A program made the position numbers and the translations under genes. Positions 10,538-37,262 of a DNA stretch of 64,000 nucleotides are shown one piece after another (position 1 is the first letter of the stretch; every line of letters begins with the position of its first letter). A model generated the notes under the pieces. It searched no databases. It saw nothing but the letters and a program-made list of their open reading frames with translations, and was not told the origin of the DNA. The stretch is from Halobacteria archaeon HArc-gm2 (lineage in GTDB: Archaea > Halobacteriota > Halobacteria > Halobacteriales > Haloarculaceae), in assembly GCA_025517465.1 (NCBI GenBank), contig JAOPKE010000002.1, positions 372,001 to 436,000 of the forward strand, written 5' to 3'.

Positions 10538-11060
10538 TCGAAAGCCCTCGGCGCGCTTCGCGGTCGCTCAGCGGGATACCCTCACGTCCGTTCGGGTAGG
10601 GCCCACTGAGCGACTGCCCTTCGGCGCGAGCCCGCCTCGCCCTTTCAGTCCTCCAGGCCTAGCCTCCCTCGCGCGGGCTTCGCCACGCGCTCGCGATTAG
10701 AACCACCACCCCTCCCCGGTCGCGCCGCGTCCGCGTCGCGACACGCTTCCTGACCGCTCCGCACCCGCTCGGCCGGGAGCGAGTGGCCGAGTGAAAACGA
10801 GGCCCTCGCGACCAGGGGGAGGGCAGGGCTGCGGTGCTGTGCGGACCCTGGAGGACTGAAAGGGCGAGGCGGGGTCCGGGAACCCCGGCCCACCAAGTAC
10901 CGCAACGCAGTGAGGAGCGCAGGTGGGCCGCGGGACCGGAGCGCGCCGAGGGCTTTCTGGTTGTTGGCGGTCTCGATTCCGACTCCAGAGAGCGCGCCGA
11001 GGGCTTTCTGGTTGTTGGCGGTCTCGATTCCGACTCCAGAGAGCGCGCCGAGGGCTTCCT
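10538..11060. repeat. long composite inverted-repeat element, locus R1 (REPIN-like)
   Basis: Fills most of the 759-bp gap between two divergent genes. The left unit (10538-10657) starts tcgaaagccctcggcgcgct and ends ccctttcagtcctccagg. The right unit (10847-10960) is the same type inverted, starting cctggaggactgaaagggcg and ending gccgagggctttctgg. Each has its own stem: GGTCGCTCAG.../...CTGAGCGACT on the left and GGCCCACC/GGTGGGCC on the right. The central core (10658-10846) contains a near-perfect hairpin at 10719-10742 (GTCGCGCCGCG, TC, CGCGTCGCGAC). After the right unit a 51-bp direct repeat occurs twice plus a partial third copy (10941-11060). It is related to loci at 16.6 and 36.8 kb. 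No coding is believed. Confidence 0.88.
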
Positions 11061-11176
11061 ACATCTTGCTGTTCCTGACCCTGACAAAGCAGACGACTCA
11101 AACCACTCATTCAGTAAACACACCCGCCCATCGATCAAAGAGCAAGACGAATAGGCCTGCAGATGATATCGCGTGC

Positions 11177-15584: not shown

Positions 15585-16508
15585 TCACCGCACCGGTTCG
15601 ACGACCTCCTCGGCGAATCGCGTGAGGTTCGCCGCGGGGTCGTCGCCGCCCGGCGAGACGAGCACGTGGTCGACGCCTAGCTCCGCCAGGTCGCGGAAGT
15701 ACTCGGCGAACCACTCGGTGCCGGCGCGGTAGCCCAGGTGGATCGGTTCGGGTCCGGCGGTCGGGTCGTCCGCGAGTTCTGTCTGCACCGCCATCGCGTA
15801 GGGCTTGTCACCGGCCGCCTCCCGCCAGTCGGCGAGGTAGCTCTCGAGGGTCTCCATCGGAAGGTGGTAGAAGAACCAGCCGTCGCCGTGCTCGGCGATC
15901 CACTCGACCTCCTGGCGGGCGTGACCCGTCGGGAGGAGCGGGATCGTCTCGGTCGTCGGCTTCGGAACCATATCCATCTCGCCGTCGAGCGTGCCCCACG
16001 ACGACTCTATCTCGGGGAAGTCCTCTCGCCAGACCGTCCGCATGACGTCGACGCTCTCGCGGAACAGATCGCCGCGCTATTCGGGGTCGACGTCGAAGGC
16101 CGGGAACTCCGGGTCGCGGTCGCCCGTCGCGACGCCCATCACCAGCCGGCCACCGGAGAGCCGGTCGACGGAGGCGGCGGACTTGGCGACGTGGAGGGGA
16201 TGGCGCAGCGGCAGGACGACGCTGGCCGTGCCCAGTGCGATCTCCTCGGTGTGGGCCGCGGCGTGGCTCAGCCACGGCCACGTGTCGAACGTCTGGCCCG
16301 CGTCGCCGAACCGCGGCCAGTAGAGCGGAACGTCGCGGGCCCACAGCGCGTCGAACCCGACCGACTCGGCGTGAGCCGCCAGTTCCATCTCCTCGTCGAC
16401 AGGCGGCTGGGATTCGTTGATTCCGGTGAGTGGGAAGCCGGCCCCGAAGGTGAGCCCATCGGTGTCGAAGAGTCGCTCCCACCCGGCGTTGGCGTGGCCC
16501 TGTGTCAC
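15585..16508 (-). pseudogene. luciferase-like (LLM class) flavin-dependent oxidoreductase interrupted by an in-frame TAG
   Basis: The reading frame of a bacterial-luciferase-like monooxygenase runs from the ATG at 16508 to the TGA at 15585, broken once by TAG at 16077-16079. The N-terminal part (143 aa) holds FGAGFPLTGINESQPP, EMELAAHAESVGFDALWARD and GTASVVLPLRHPLHVAKSAA with DRLSGGRLVMGVATGDRDPE. Immediately after the stop, in the same frame, comes RGDLFRESVDVMRTVWREDF, the expected continuation. A single substitution (GAG or CAG to TAG) explains it. It is most likely an inactivated gene; two half-proteins or a sequencing error are alternatives. F420 or FMN would be the cofactor. Confidence 0.85.
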
Positions 16509-16634: not shown

Positions 16635-17065
16635 TCGAAAGCCCTCGGCGCGCTCGACTCGCGCGGACCCGCTGCGCTCCGCCGGTGCTTGCGGGTCCGT
16701 GCTTCGTCCACCGCGCCTCGCCCTTTCATTCCTCCAGGGACAGCTGTCGCTCGCGCCACGGAGGCGCTCGCGATTGGCTCCACCAAACCTCCCCGGATTC
16801 GGCGCGTCCGCGCCGAATCACGCTTCCTGACTGCTCCGCAACCGCCCGGCCGGGAGCGAGTAGCCGAGCGAAAGCGAGGCTCTCGTTACCAGGGGAAGGG
16901 CAGGGCTGCGGTGCTGTGCGGACCCTGGAGGAATGAAAGGGCGAGGCGGGGTCCGGGAACCCCGGGCCTTCAAGCACCGGAGCGTAGCGAGGAGCGCAGG
17001 AGGTCCGCGGGACCGGAGCCCGCCGAGGGCTTTCGGGGTGTTTGTGGTCTCGATTACGACTCCTA
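16635..17065. repeat. long composite inverted-repeat element, locus R2 (REPIN-like)
   Basis: Occupies most of the 737 bp between the divergent luciferase pseudogene and a lipoprotein gene. The left unit (16635-16738) holds the perfect stem CGGACCCGC/GCGGGTCCG. The inverted right unit (16924-17037) holds the conserved segment CAAGCACCGGAGCGTAGCGA. The core (16739-16923) carries a perfect 11-bp hairpin at 16796-16819 (GATTCGGCGCG, TC, CGCGCCGAATC). The tail 17038-17065 (ggtctcgattacgactcc) is one copy of the sequence that is tandemly repeated at locus R1. The remaining 180 bp to the next gene shows nothing else. Confidence 0.88.
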
Positions 17066-18520: not shown

Positions 18521-18612
18521 CTTCAGTACCCGTCAAGTAGCACTTGATTAATGCAGAATTAGCGAACGGTACTGAGGGTTTAATGTCCACTCTATCAGGG
18601 TTCAACCCGCAC

Positions 18613-19116
18613 ATGCAGATCAAACACCTCATGCAAGACGACGATGCCGTCTCACCGGTTATCGGCGTCATCCTCATGGTCGCGATCACCGTGATCCTCG
18701 CGGCCGTCATCGCATCGTTCGTGCTCGGTCTCGGTGACCAGGCACAGCAGACAACTCCGCAGGCCAGCTTCTCGTTCGATTACGACGGTTCACTGAATGG
18801 AAATAGCGATGGTGGTTTCAACGATGATACAGGAAACCTCACAGCCGCTAGTGGCGCATCCGACTCAGGTGTGCTAACTATCACGCATGATGGTGGGGAT
18901 ACGATCAATGAAAATCGTCTTTCAATCACTGATGATTCTGGTAGTAATCGACCTCACCTACACGACGCATCTAACATTAGCCCGGACCAAGACATTTCGG
19001 CCGGATCATCGCTGAGTGTTGGTATCGATAACAGTGATATAATTCGAATCGTGTACACCGGCGAGTCTGGAGACAGCAGCTCAACTCTCGCAACTTTCGA
19101 AGGACCGGAAGCCTGA
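18613..19116 (+). CDS. type IV pilin-like protein 1
   Basis: 167 aa from the ATG at 18613 ([18 protein letters not shown]). The haloarchaeal pilin N-domain is complete: a short charged leader, [19 protein letters not shown], then the hydrophobic H-domain ending [21 protein letters not shown] prepilin peptidase would cut before the hydrophobic stretch. The rest is a variable, Ser/Asp/Gly/Asn-rich beta domain ending [15 protein letters not shown]. It is first of three tandem paralogues, 6 bp from the next. Earlier in-frame starts exist at 18544 (TTG) and 18583 (ATG). It is a structural subunit of a surface pilus or adhesin; no assembly genes are in the window. Confidence 0.88.
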   Translation: MQIKHLMQDDDAVSPVIGVILMVAITVILAAVIASFVLGLGDQAQQTTPQASFSFDYDGSLNGNSDGGFNDDTGNLTAASGASDSGVLTITHDGGDTINENRLSITDDSGSNRPHLHDASNISPDQDISAGSSLSVGIDNSDIIRIVYTGESGDSSSTLATFEGPEA

Positions 19117-19122
19117 TCGAAA

Positions 19123-19632
19123 ATGAATATCCAACAAATTCTCAAAGACGACGACGCCGTGTCGCCTGTTATTGGCGTCATCCTGATGGTCGCGATCACC
19201 GTGATCCTCGCGGCCGTTATTGCATCGTTCGTGCTCGGTCTCGGTGACCAGGCACAGCAGACTACCCCGCAGGCCAGTTTCTCGTTTGACTACGATGCAA
19301 GCGCGAATGAAAACCTAACAATCACCCATGACGGTGGGGATACAATTGACCCTGCACGTCTTCAAGTAATCTCGTCTGCCGATTTCCACCCCGCTCCAGG
19401 TAATGATACTGGCAGCCATGGGGGGACTCAAGTTGGTAGTTATTACTTGGACGGTCAAGCAGACGCCTCAGGTGGCGGTGCTGCGTGGGTTGGGAGCGAC
19501 GTTACGGCAGGAACAAGCTTCGGCATAGTTCCCGAGTCTAGCCTTGACTCTGCCACCGTAAGAATTGTGTTCGTCGGCGAGTCGGGTGACAGTTCCTCTA
19601 CTCTGGCAACCTGGGAGGGACCTAACGCATGA
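19123..19632 (+). CDS. type IV pilin-like protein 2
   Basis: 169 aa, [18 protein letters not shown] followed by the same hydrophobic domain as its neighbours, nearly identical even at the DNA level (19156-19285). The middle (about residues 62-150) shares little with pilins 1 and 3 beyond [11 protein letters not shown]. The C terminus returns to the common [15 protein letters not shown]. Its stop overlaps the start of pilin 3 (ATGA at 19629-19632), so the three genes form one operon. Confidence 0.88.
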
Positions 19633-20147
19633 ATCTTAAAGAACTCCTTCAAGAAGATGACGCAGTTTCACCAGTCATTGGTGTCATCCTCATGGTCGCA
19701 ATCACCGTGATCCTCGCGGCCGTCATCGCATCGTTCGTGCTCGGTCTCGGTGACCAGGCACAGCAGACCACTCCTCAAGCCAGCTTTTCATTCGATTACA
19801 CGGATGGAACTTCAGATAAATTGTCGATCACACATGACGGCGGTGACACCATTGATGGCGCCAATGTGAACGCCACAGCTGATGGGGTGGCTGACGGAGA
19901 AGGAAACGATGCGTGGGTAGGTGCAGACATATTCACGAGTGAAATCAGTGCAGGAACGGGAGATGCAATTGACAATTCTGTAATAAAAAGCTCAGATGGT
20001 GAAGGTAACACTGGATACCTGAACAACCATGACGACTCATCTGAGACAAATTTGGACCTGTCTGGTGCGACAATCCGTGTCGTTTACGAAGATTCCAGCG
20101 GCGACAGCAGTTCGACCCTCGCGACCTGGGAAGGCCCAGACGCGTAA
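19629..20147 (+). CDS. type IV pilin-like protein 3
   Basis: 172 aa, [18 protein letters not shown], the shared H-domain, then [20 protein letters not shown], a unique middle region, and the common end [15 protein letters not shown]. The pattern of constant N terminus, variable middle and constant C terminus across three adjacent genes suggests recombination between cassettes. The middle is AT-richer than the ends. Confidence 0.88.
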
Positions 20148-22975: not shown

Positions 22976-23250
22976 CGAAAGCCCCGATAGGCTCCACTCG
23001 GGGGGCTCGCTGCGCGCCTCACTCCGTTCGGTGCTTGCGTCGCCCGCCTTCGCGGAGCCTATCGCCCCTTTCAGTCCCACCCACGAGGTCTGTTCGTCCG
23101 GCTGAGTTACTGTGGACTGATGAGTTTTCCAGGTGGGTGGGATCGAAAGGGGCCGACCGCTCGGGGAAGGCGGACGCAGCAAGCACCGAGCGAAGCGAGG
23201 CGCGCAGCAAGTCCCCCGACCCGAGCGGGAGGGGGCTTTCGAGTTGTTGC
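22976..23250. repeat. short inverted-repeat doublet, locus S1 (REPIN-like)
   Basis: Left unit 22976-23083 (cgaaagccccgataggctcc ... cccctttcagtcccaccca) has a perfect stem CGATAGGCTCC (22985-22995) with GGAGCCTATCG (23054-23064). The inverted right unit 23132-23243 (ggtgggtgggatcgaaaggg ... gggggctttc) has stem CCGCTCGGG/CCCGAGCGG and the conserved segment CAAGCACCGAGCGAAGCGAG. Only about 50 bp separates them and no long core is present. It fills the gap between fxsA and the P450 gene. Confidence 0.85.
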
Positions 23251-28237: not shown

Positions 28238-28400
28238 GGTGGGAATGAAAGGGGCGGCGGGCTCGACGACGGCAGCCGAAGTAAGCACCGAGCGTAGCGA
28301 GGCGCGTGGTTCGAGAGAGCGGAGCTCTCTCGTCATCACGAAAATCTCCGATTTTCGGACGACAGCGAGGCTCCCGAGTCGAGCCCGCCGGGGCTTTCGA
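28238..28400 (+). repeat. single REPIN-like unit with nested hairpin block, locus S2
   Basis: One unit in the gap between DUF2103 and L37Ae: ggtgggaatgaaaggggc at the left, ggggctttcg at the right, a perfect 12-bp stem GGCGGGCTCGAC (28256-28267) with GTCGAGCCCGCC (28378-28389), and the conserved TAAGCACCGAGCGTAGCGAG. Inside lie two more hairpins: GAGAGAGC/GCTCTCTC (28313-28331) and CGAAAATC/GATTTTCG (28339-28357). The 19-mer CTCTCTCGTCATCACGAAA (28325-28343) recurs inverted at locus S3. Confidence 0.85.
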
Positions 28401-33341: not shown

Positions 33342-33513
33342 GGTCTGGACGTTGGGTGGCGATCACGAAAAACGACCCGCTTTGGGACTGTTTTGGACGC
33401 TGGATGCGGGACCGATCCGGTCTCTCGCCCGTTTCCGATGCGCTCACTGTGGAGTACAACTACTGTGTTTCTCACTCGATATTGAGACAGCTACCAATAT
33501 TGTCAACAGAAAT

Positions 33514-33811
33514 GAAAGCCCCGGCTGGCTCCGGTCCCGCGGCTCGCTGCGCGCTCACTCCGTTCGCGTGCTTGCTTCGCCGGGGTTCCCGGAGCCAGCC
33601 GCCCCTTTCATTCCCAACCCTTTCTCCTGTCGAATCAGCAGGCCCGGGTGGGAATGAAAGGGGCCGACCGCTCGGTGAGCGAGATCGTTCGAAAGGCGCT
33701 GCGCGCCTTTCGTGATGACGAGAGAGAGAAGCTCTCTCGAACCAACCCGCAAGCACGGCCGAAGGCCGCGCGCAGCGCGGTTCGCAGCCACCGAGCGGGA
33801 GGGGGCTTTCG
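33514..33811. repeat. short inverted-repeat doublet, locus S3 (REPIN-like)
   Basis: Left unit 33514-33616 has stem GGCTGGCTCC (33523-33532) with GGAGCCAGCC (33591-33600) and ends cccctttcattccca. Right unit 33647-33811 (ggtgggaatgaaaggggc to gggggctttcg) has stem CCGCTCGGTG (33668-33677) with CACCGAGCGG (33789-33798). The right unit carries a nested block with two hairpins, CGAAAGGCGC/GCGCCTTTCG (33690-33712) and GAGAGAG/CTCTCTC (33722-33738), the inverse of the block in S2. It lies in the 627-bp gap 33342-33968; the flanks hold nothing else recognisable. Confidence 0.85.
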
Positions 33812-33968
33812 GGCTGTTGTTTATCGCTCCAATGGCCATCATAGCACTGACTGATCAACACAGTAGTTCAGCCACTCACGGACAGTCTCGCCAGTCCGCA
33901 CTCGGAGACACTCACACTGCCCTCACAACACCGACAGCCAAAAAATCAGGAGGCGGGGACCAGCGCCG

Positions 33969-36821: not shown

Positions 36822-37262
36822 TCGAAAGCCCTCCCGGCGCTCGACCGCTCCGGGGCTCGCTGCGCTCCAGCAGGTGCTTGCGTCGCCCGGGAGGGTTCGA
36901 GCGCCGTTCGCCCTTTCATTCCTCCAGGCACAGCACCGCAGCCCTGCCCTTCCCCTGGTCGCGCGATAAAACGCGCTCCCGGCCGGGTGGTTGCGGAGCG
37001 GTCAGGACGCGTGTCGCGACGCGGACGCGGCGCGACCGGGGAGGGGTGGCGGAGTCAATCGCGAGCGCGTGCCGAAGGCCGCGCGAGCTACGGCTGTCCC
37101 TGGAGGAATGAAAGGGCGAGGCGCGGTGAAGGAAGCACGGACCCATAAGCACCGCAGTGCAACGAGGAGCGCAGTGGGTCCGCGCGAGTTCAGCGGGCCG
37201 AGGGCTTTCCTTTGTTGCCGGTCCCGATTCTGACTGCAGAGTGCGAGCCGAGGGCTTTCGAC
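36822..37262. repeat. long composite inverted-repeat element, locus R3, core inverted
   Basis: Left unit 36822-36928 (tcgaaagccctcccggcgct ... ccctttcattcctccagg) and inverted right unit 37099-37210 (cctggaggaatgaaagggcg ... gccgagggctttcc) with stem GGACCCA/TGGGTCC. The core (36929-37098) is the reverse complement of the R1/R2 core, including the hairpin at 37013-37036 that is identical to the R1 one. Downstream, ccgagggctttc recurs 50 bp later (37198 and 37248), matching the 51-bp tail repeat of R1. It sits between divergent helicase and ribbon-helix-helix genes. Confidence 0.87.

Follow-up and report, generated by a model that had tools for sequence, protein, structure and literature searches.

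Structured intergenic repeats in a family of paired hairpins

The window analysed here is a stretch of 64,000 nucleotides (G000:C11:372001-436000) from a draft haloarchaeal genome of 4.25 Mb in 18 contigs. It contains dispersed intergenic repeats with the look of paired hairpins, which raises the question of what these repeats are and how copies come to occupy their sites. The original prediction was of eleven units at six intergenic loci, and all eleven proved to be real. The left box GGAATGAAAGGG has 11 matches in the window with at most two mismatches, against 2.05 expected, a count reached in none of 100 shuffles; genome-wide, exact matches number 62 for the box and none for its backward control. 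Five of the loci are inverted doublets and one, at 28242, is a singlet, just as had been stated. The description of a unit as a box-to-box hairpin stood for the unit itself but needed extending in two respects: the elements run on for 45-75 nt past GGGCTTTC, and the units at 28242 and 33651 hold a nested two-hairpin insert of about 60 nt. The features of the window are as follows.

10540-10651, minus strand: unit 1, A type, left half of a doublet, read from the sequence
10652-10852, no strand: A-type spacer of about 200 nt, with a conserved GGGCAGGGCTGCGGT side and a GCGCG side
10853-10957, plus strand: unit 2, A type, the doublet's right half, covariance-model match at C11:382847-382971
10939-11077, plus strand: tandemly duplicated right end with a 51-nt period (repeat family D8)
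16637-16732, minus strand: unit 3, A type
16733-16929, no strand: A-type spacer with 89% identity to its sister-species ortholog, while both units differ there
16930-17034, plus strand: unit 4, A type
22977-23077, minus strand: unit 5, B type, its stem that of the right-hand unit at the same site in the sister species
23140-23240, plus strand: unit 6, B type, with box GGATCGAAAGGG, its stem that of the sister species' left-hand unit
28242-28398, plus strand: unit 7, B-type singlet with nested insert
28307-28364, plus strand: nested two-hairpin insert of about 60 nt, core TCGTCATCACGA; the orthologous unit lacks it
33458-33468, minus strand: outer end AACTACTGTGT, an inverted copy of 33858-33868
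33514-33614, minus strand: unit 8, B type, core 99% identical to the unit at L010:3172, with different flanks
33651-33810, plus strand: unit 9, B type with nested insert
33685-33744, minus strand: nested two-hairpin insert of about 60 nt in unit 9, in the opposite orientation
33858-33868, plus strand: outer end ACACAGTAGTT, which recurs at the ends of several B-type doublets
36824-36922, minus strand: unit 10, A type, 95% identical to a sister-species unit elsewhere and 62% to its ortholog
36923-37104, no strand: A-type spacer
37105-37209, plus strand: unit 11, A type

Anatomy and fold of the units

Units extend from GGAMTGAAAGGG to GGGCTTTC and measure 96-118 nt, or 148-167 nt where they carry the nested insert. 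Terminal pairing of GAAAG with CTTTC closes the hairpin, above which lie, from the base upward, a G-rich or GA internal loop, a lower stem that varies, a GAA/GA loop and a middle stem that likewise varies; the upper part consists of a conserved loop, AAGCAC.../...GAGCGCAG, below a short apical hairpin. The internal loops AAGCAC / GCGCAG and GAAAG / CTTTC are invariant, and unit 1 has an alternative middle module, CCCTACCCGA..GAGGGTATC. Two subtypes can be told apart: A (CGAGG..CCGAGGGCTTTC), with doublet spacers of about 170-250 nt, and B (GGGGCGG..CCGGGGCTTTC), with spacers of about 36 nt. The element ends, 45-75 nt beyond the right box, are specific to subfamilies, those of A type differing and a subset of B elements bearing ACACAGTAGTT at both ends. 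The motif CTCCTAG is enriched near the ends, and we rejected it as an element-end motif because it is too varied to serve as a boundary. Tandem duplication of A-type right ends with a period of about 51 nt was also seen at 37190-37260 and at L009, L011, L015, L027 and L039, in both species.

Folding of 52 units of this genome with RNAalifold gave 31 base pairs, 19 of which show two-sided compensatory change. We then applied the same fold to 55 distinct units from named species of many genera (Natronococcus, Natrinema, Haloterrigena, Halopiger, Haloarcula, Haloferax gibbonsii, Halococcus, Halobaculum and others), in which 93.5% of cells are paired and two-sided changes number 281; shuffles give 84, and sliding the structure gives 45-89. 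Units of different genera thus share a single conserved structure, with strong compensatory change. Stem mismatches on the GGAMTGAAAGGG..GGGCTTTC strand are G.T rather than A.C by 69 to 11, in a test that leans slightly towards the strand of the prediction, and C(GNA)G apical triloops, which are exceptionally stable in single-stranded DNA, cap 57 of 81 and 44 of 69 units and none on the opposite strand. The GGAMTGAAAGGG..GGGCTTTC strand is therefore the better-folding one, which could reflect either RNA or single-stranded DNA. Because the fold also has conserved loops, selection acts on more than pairing, and the fold probably has a role that involves protein or RNA.

Copy number, distribution and genomic place

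The whole-unit pattern, which misses diverged units, finds 161 units in the genome under study, and with a covariance model made from 52 units the count is at least 150, of which 149 have E below 1e-12. Searching other haloarchaeal genomes with such a model had been proposed as a check, and the family does extend far beyond the window, with its fold conserved elsewhere. Of 146 genomes from the taxonomic family to which this genome belongs, 105 have units, at 1 to 161 each, with no matches for the backward controls. Among 393 genomes sampled from the phylum all matches are confined to the haloarchaeal order, and no unit was found outside that order among the genomes sampled. Counts per genome within the genus are 0, 0, 0, 1, 14, 142 and 161. 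The change from 0 to 142-161 copies between G059, G060 and G062 on one side and G063, G064 and G000 on the other points to recent amplification or loss on the scale of species.

None of the 59 sites examined lies inside a gene. All 57 close pairs in the genome under study are inverted with heads inward, which bears out the claim of a dispersed, structured, intergenic family arranged in inverted doublets. The polarity of the doublets is reversed in some genera: G003, a related species, and one other genus have tail-to-tail doublets, and no head-to-head ones were found there. The assembly is a draft, so that some doublets could be mis-assembled, but not all twenty.

Ten doublets lie between convergent genes, 10 between divergent and 16 between tandem ones, so no gene orientation is preferred, and we discarded a role as bidirectional terminator between convergent genes for that reason. 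Gene calls beside the window sites were checked with Pfam. The 80 proteins adjoining units are ordinary or housekeeping proteins, and among the families listed for them none recurs and none is a transposase, in agreement with the earlier statement that no transposase lies near any copy. We also looked for an autonomous parent element, in which two units would enclose a transposase, and rejected it, as no minus-plus pair with a gene-sized gap belongs together and the neighbours are housekeeping genes.

Two features of the neighbouring genes were recorded in passing. Three tandem paralogues at 18544-20147 have archaeal type IV pilin N-termini (Pilin_N), their DNA being 84-87% identical over 178 nt at a spacing of about 508 nt. 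Near the doublet at 16637, a 143-amino-acid fragment (16080-16508) matches the luciferase-like monooxygenase profile, 314 positions long, at positions 16-120 only and is possibly a broken gene.

Hairpins appear to be replaced at inherited sites

The sister species G064 is 90-95% identical to the genome under study and collinear with it over long stretches. At the 16 sites common to both, the docking architecture and the flanks are kept, but the unit interiors are not. Interior identity of 20 orthologous units averages 0.697, against 0.706 for random pairs (p 0.64), while the outer flanks retain orthology (p 7e-4) and spacers stand at 0.71 against 0.62. With about half of the G064 units covered, the best match of a unit at a shared site nearly always lies at another site: the unit at 36922 is 0.95 identical to one elsewhere in G064 and 0.62 to its ortholog, and that at 16930 is 0.96 and 0.62, respectively. 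In the doublet at 22977-23240 the two arms have exchanged places between the species with the spacer and outer flanks unmoved, and in the other B doublet compared at least one arm has crossed over.

When units from separate sites are compared over the two genomes, 67 pairs have cores at least 92% identical and flanks near background, and in alignments of near-identical units the identity begins at GAMTG and ends at CTTTC. Modules within the hairpin recombine as well, 27 pairs sharing an identical middle stem and differing in the apical part. Since near-identical units have unrelated flanks, and orthologous units have random-like interiors between orthologous ends and spacers, the docking sites are inherited and the single hairpins in them behave like cassettes that can be exchanged. 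The entity copied would thus be the single unit and not the doublet. Sister species hold different hairpins at the same place, and swapping among fixed sites is probably fast.

Natronococcus pandeyae has eight near-identical units at eight sites, each beside either of two element ends, and at six of the eight the partner hairpin is absent, leaving a closed box. Empty boxes of this kind, GAMTGAAAGGGG(G)CTTTC, are present in 10 genomes out of 142, and the backward control has no matches. They are joined at the GGGG that flanks the hairpin on both sides, the expected product of slippage at the hairpin base. A comparison of empty and filled sites in close relatives, suggested with the original prediction, was informative mainly about loss: the polymorphic sites examined in the two species mostly resemble deletion or decay, and none is a precise new insertion with a target duplication. 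Turnover between the two species, as far as their sequences tell, appears to be largely deletion.

The nested insert of about 60 nt has the form TGGTTCGA..TCGTCATCACGA..CGACA and is found in both orientations, in unit loops and in one spacer. Its presence varies between orthologous units, and further copies lie beyond the window at L013, L014, L016, L017, L023 and L043.

A proposed model of box-bounded exchange

We propose that the units are hairpin cassettes that undergo ectopic, box-bounded exchange within non-autonomous palindromic intergenic elements, a reading to which we assign a probability of roughly 0.58. Each element would carry one or two cassettes of about 100 nt, with GGAMTGAAAGGG and GGGCTTTC as their limits, and the docking positions would be inverted. 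The folded form may act as single-stranded nucleic acid on the GGAMTGAAAGGG..GGGCTTTC strand; a hairpin extruded during replication or repair would be cut, or skipped, to its base, and the resulting gap would be refilled from a copy of another unit. As homology would be provided only by the terminal boxes and the conserved internal-loop patches, exchange would end at the boxes. Candidate actors are host proteins for recombination and hairpin processing, or a dedicated enzyme that has escaped recognition. Two observations weigh against this model: ordinary gene conversion would have only a short homology to work with, 12-20 nt on each side, and inversion fits the reciprocal arm swap at 22977-23240 better than one-way conversion does. 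A further proposal is that haloarchaea have a dedicated, fold-recognising mechanism that continually replaces the one or two hairpins of fixed, inherited docking sites from a genomic pool, a shuffling system unlike transposons, REPINs and integrons and unlike ordinary gene conversion; we hold this version tentatively and regard it as doubtful.

The same elements might instead be a structured non-coding RNA family, with transcribed units whose RNA fold is selected for protein binding, mRNA processing or stability and whose DNA copies spread by conversion. The very strong covariation, the invariant internal loops and a stable fold on one strand that tolerates G.U over A.C all agree with this, but the units have no preferred orientation relative to genes, the heads of B doublets are about 36 nt apart and leave scant space for two divergent promoters, the apical loops are mostly C(GNA)G triloops, and there is no Rfam match (Rfam 15 models run against 10400-37400 returned only a tRNA and chance matches). 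We therefore consider it unlikely. An invertase- or integron-like system of dedicated site-specific recombination, with the terminal boxes as the points at which doublets are inverted and cassettes swapped, would explain why tracts end exactly at the boxes, the crossed arms of both B doublets compared, including the reciprocal swap, and the occurrence of the Natronococcus cassette at either element end. No recombinase gene recurs beside units, however, and the recombination of modules within hairpins is unexpected of a fixed-site enzyme, so that this account is very unlikely to be correct.

Two further readings assign movement to transposases. Archaeal REPINs, that is, inverted doublets that a Y1 (RAYT-like) transposase moves as a whole and in trans through its action on single-stranded DNA, would match hairpin doublets that are inverted, intergenic, high in copy number and folded strand-specifically. 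The Y1 searches led us to reject this REPIN/RAYT reading, which we judge highly improbable. The copy-richest genome has a single Y1 gene, located in an IS200/TnpB element, and this sole Y1 transposase has no flanking unit, contrary to the TnpA-like gene with its own unit that had been envisaged; Y1 and unit numbers show no correlation over 89 genomes (Spearman -0.15, p 0.15); and seven genomes with at least five units have no Y1 at all. Moreover, the GTAG foot is absent, the 5' box being GGAMTGAAAGGG and units about 105 nt long, and it is single units that move, with different partners and flanks. Alternatively, the units could be IS605-type relics, either PATEs or the small mobile repeats (SMRs) of Haloquadratum, moved by other elements. 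The hairpins of the units are near the element ends, not at them, and the terminal stretches vary between subfamilies; PATEs and SMRs have near-terminal palindromes and terminal stretches of 20-75 nt, PATEs having neither inverted terminal repeats nor a target duplication, and SMR-A, of about 110 bp, likewise has inverted repeats and no known mover (PMC3119063). Next to three TnpB genes there is a hairpin edged by the same 8-mer as the units, GAAAGCCC, but it is all that is shared: the loci around all 12 TnpB genes of the genome are free of units, on which ground we set this candidate aside and can uphold the view that the units are not degraded pieces of a known insertion sequence. In addition, PATEs and SMRs are sequence-identical or transposon-tied within a genome, whereas the units keep their fold while their stems diverge, and several unit-rich genomes lack Y1. 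An origin of this kind is quite unlikely.

At the three TnpB loci (L047:1348, L209:558 and L207:2626), GAAAGCCC, which is identical to the units' outer box, is followed by a short hairpin and GGGATGAA and adjoins the TnpB gene. This is possibly chance, or possibly a link to IS605-type ends.

We found no prior description of the family in the open-access literature, and the units add a large, order-wide structured element, absent from Rfam, to archaeal genomes. Because two species hold different cassettes at the same site, the rate of exchange, the donor and the enzyme are directly measurable. If hairpin cutting and repair drive the exchange, the units would be a genome-wide record of hairpin breakage in haloarchaea; if it is enzymatic, they would represent a new kind of mobile element. 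They also carry a warning, in that covariation in repeats can accumulate fast through cassette exchange and not by slow compensatory mutation.

Comparison with known systems

BOX- and ERIC-type bacterial repeats are structured, modular and intergenic and take up internal insertions, as the units do. The units have no sequence link to them, and cassette replacement at orthologous sites is, to our knowledge, not a described property of such repeats.

The REPs of REP-RAYT (REPtron) systems are hairpins of 20-40 bp with a GTAG or GTGG foot, and the cognate RAYT gene usually has such repeats on its flanks (PMC3116915, PMC6006769). The units resemble REPINs (PMC3116915, PMC6006769) in being inverted, gene-free hairpin doublets between genes, with many copies and common singlets. 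They differ in their length of about 105 nt, in having several conserved internal loops and freely diverging stems, and in being confined to haloarchaea; the exchange of hairpins at fixed sites is also unlike how bacterial REPINs are described. The REPIN comparison made in the original prediction therefore survives for the inverted doublet form and the intergenic location and not for the RAYT, the GTAG foot or copying at the level of the doublet, and we regard the elements as partly REPIN-like without classing them as REPINs. GTAG- and CGTC-tagged REP dimers (PMC3733652, a paper in which the word archaea is confined to the reference list) are similar in forming head-to-head and tail-to-tail dimers and heterodimers with conserved or structured spacers, and differ from the units in their tags and stem sizes.

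Within archaea, the PATEs and SMRs of Haloquadratum walsbyi (PMC3119063) are, like the units, transposase-free and palindromic, the SMRs being also about 110 bp long and without a known mover, and the nested insert resembles SMR-A repeats, which target palindromes. SMR copies are usually over 95% identical (PMC3119063), whereas units of the same type are about 70% identical in their interiors. Judged by published descriptions only, the units are set apart from PATEs and from SMR-A and SMR-B (PMC3119063) by conserving structure over stem sequence, by forming doublets and by their order-wide distribution.
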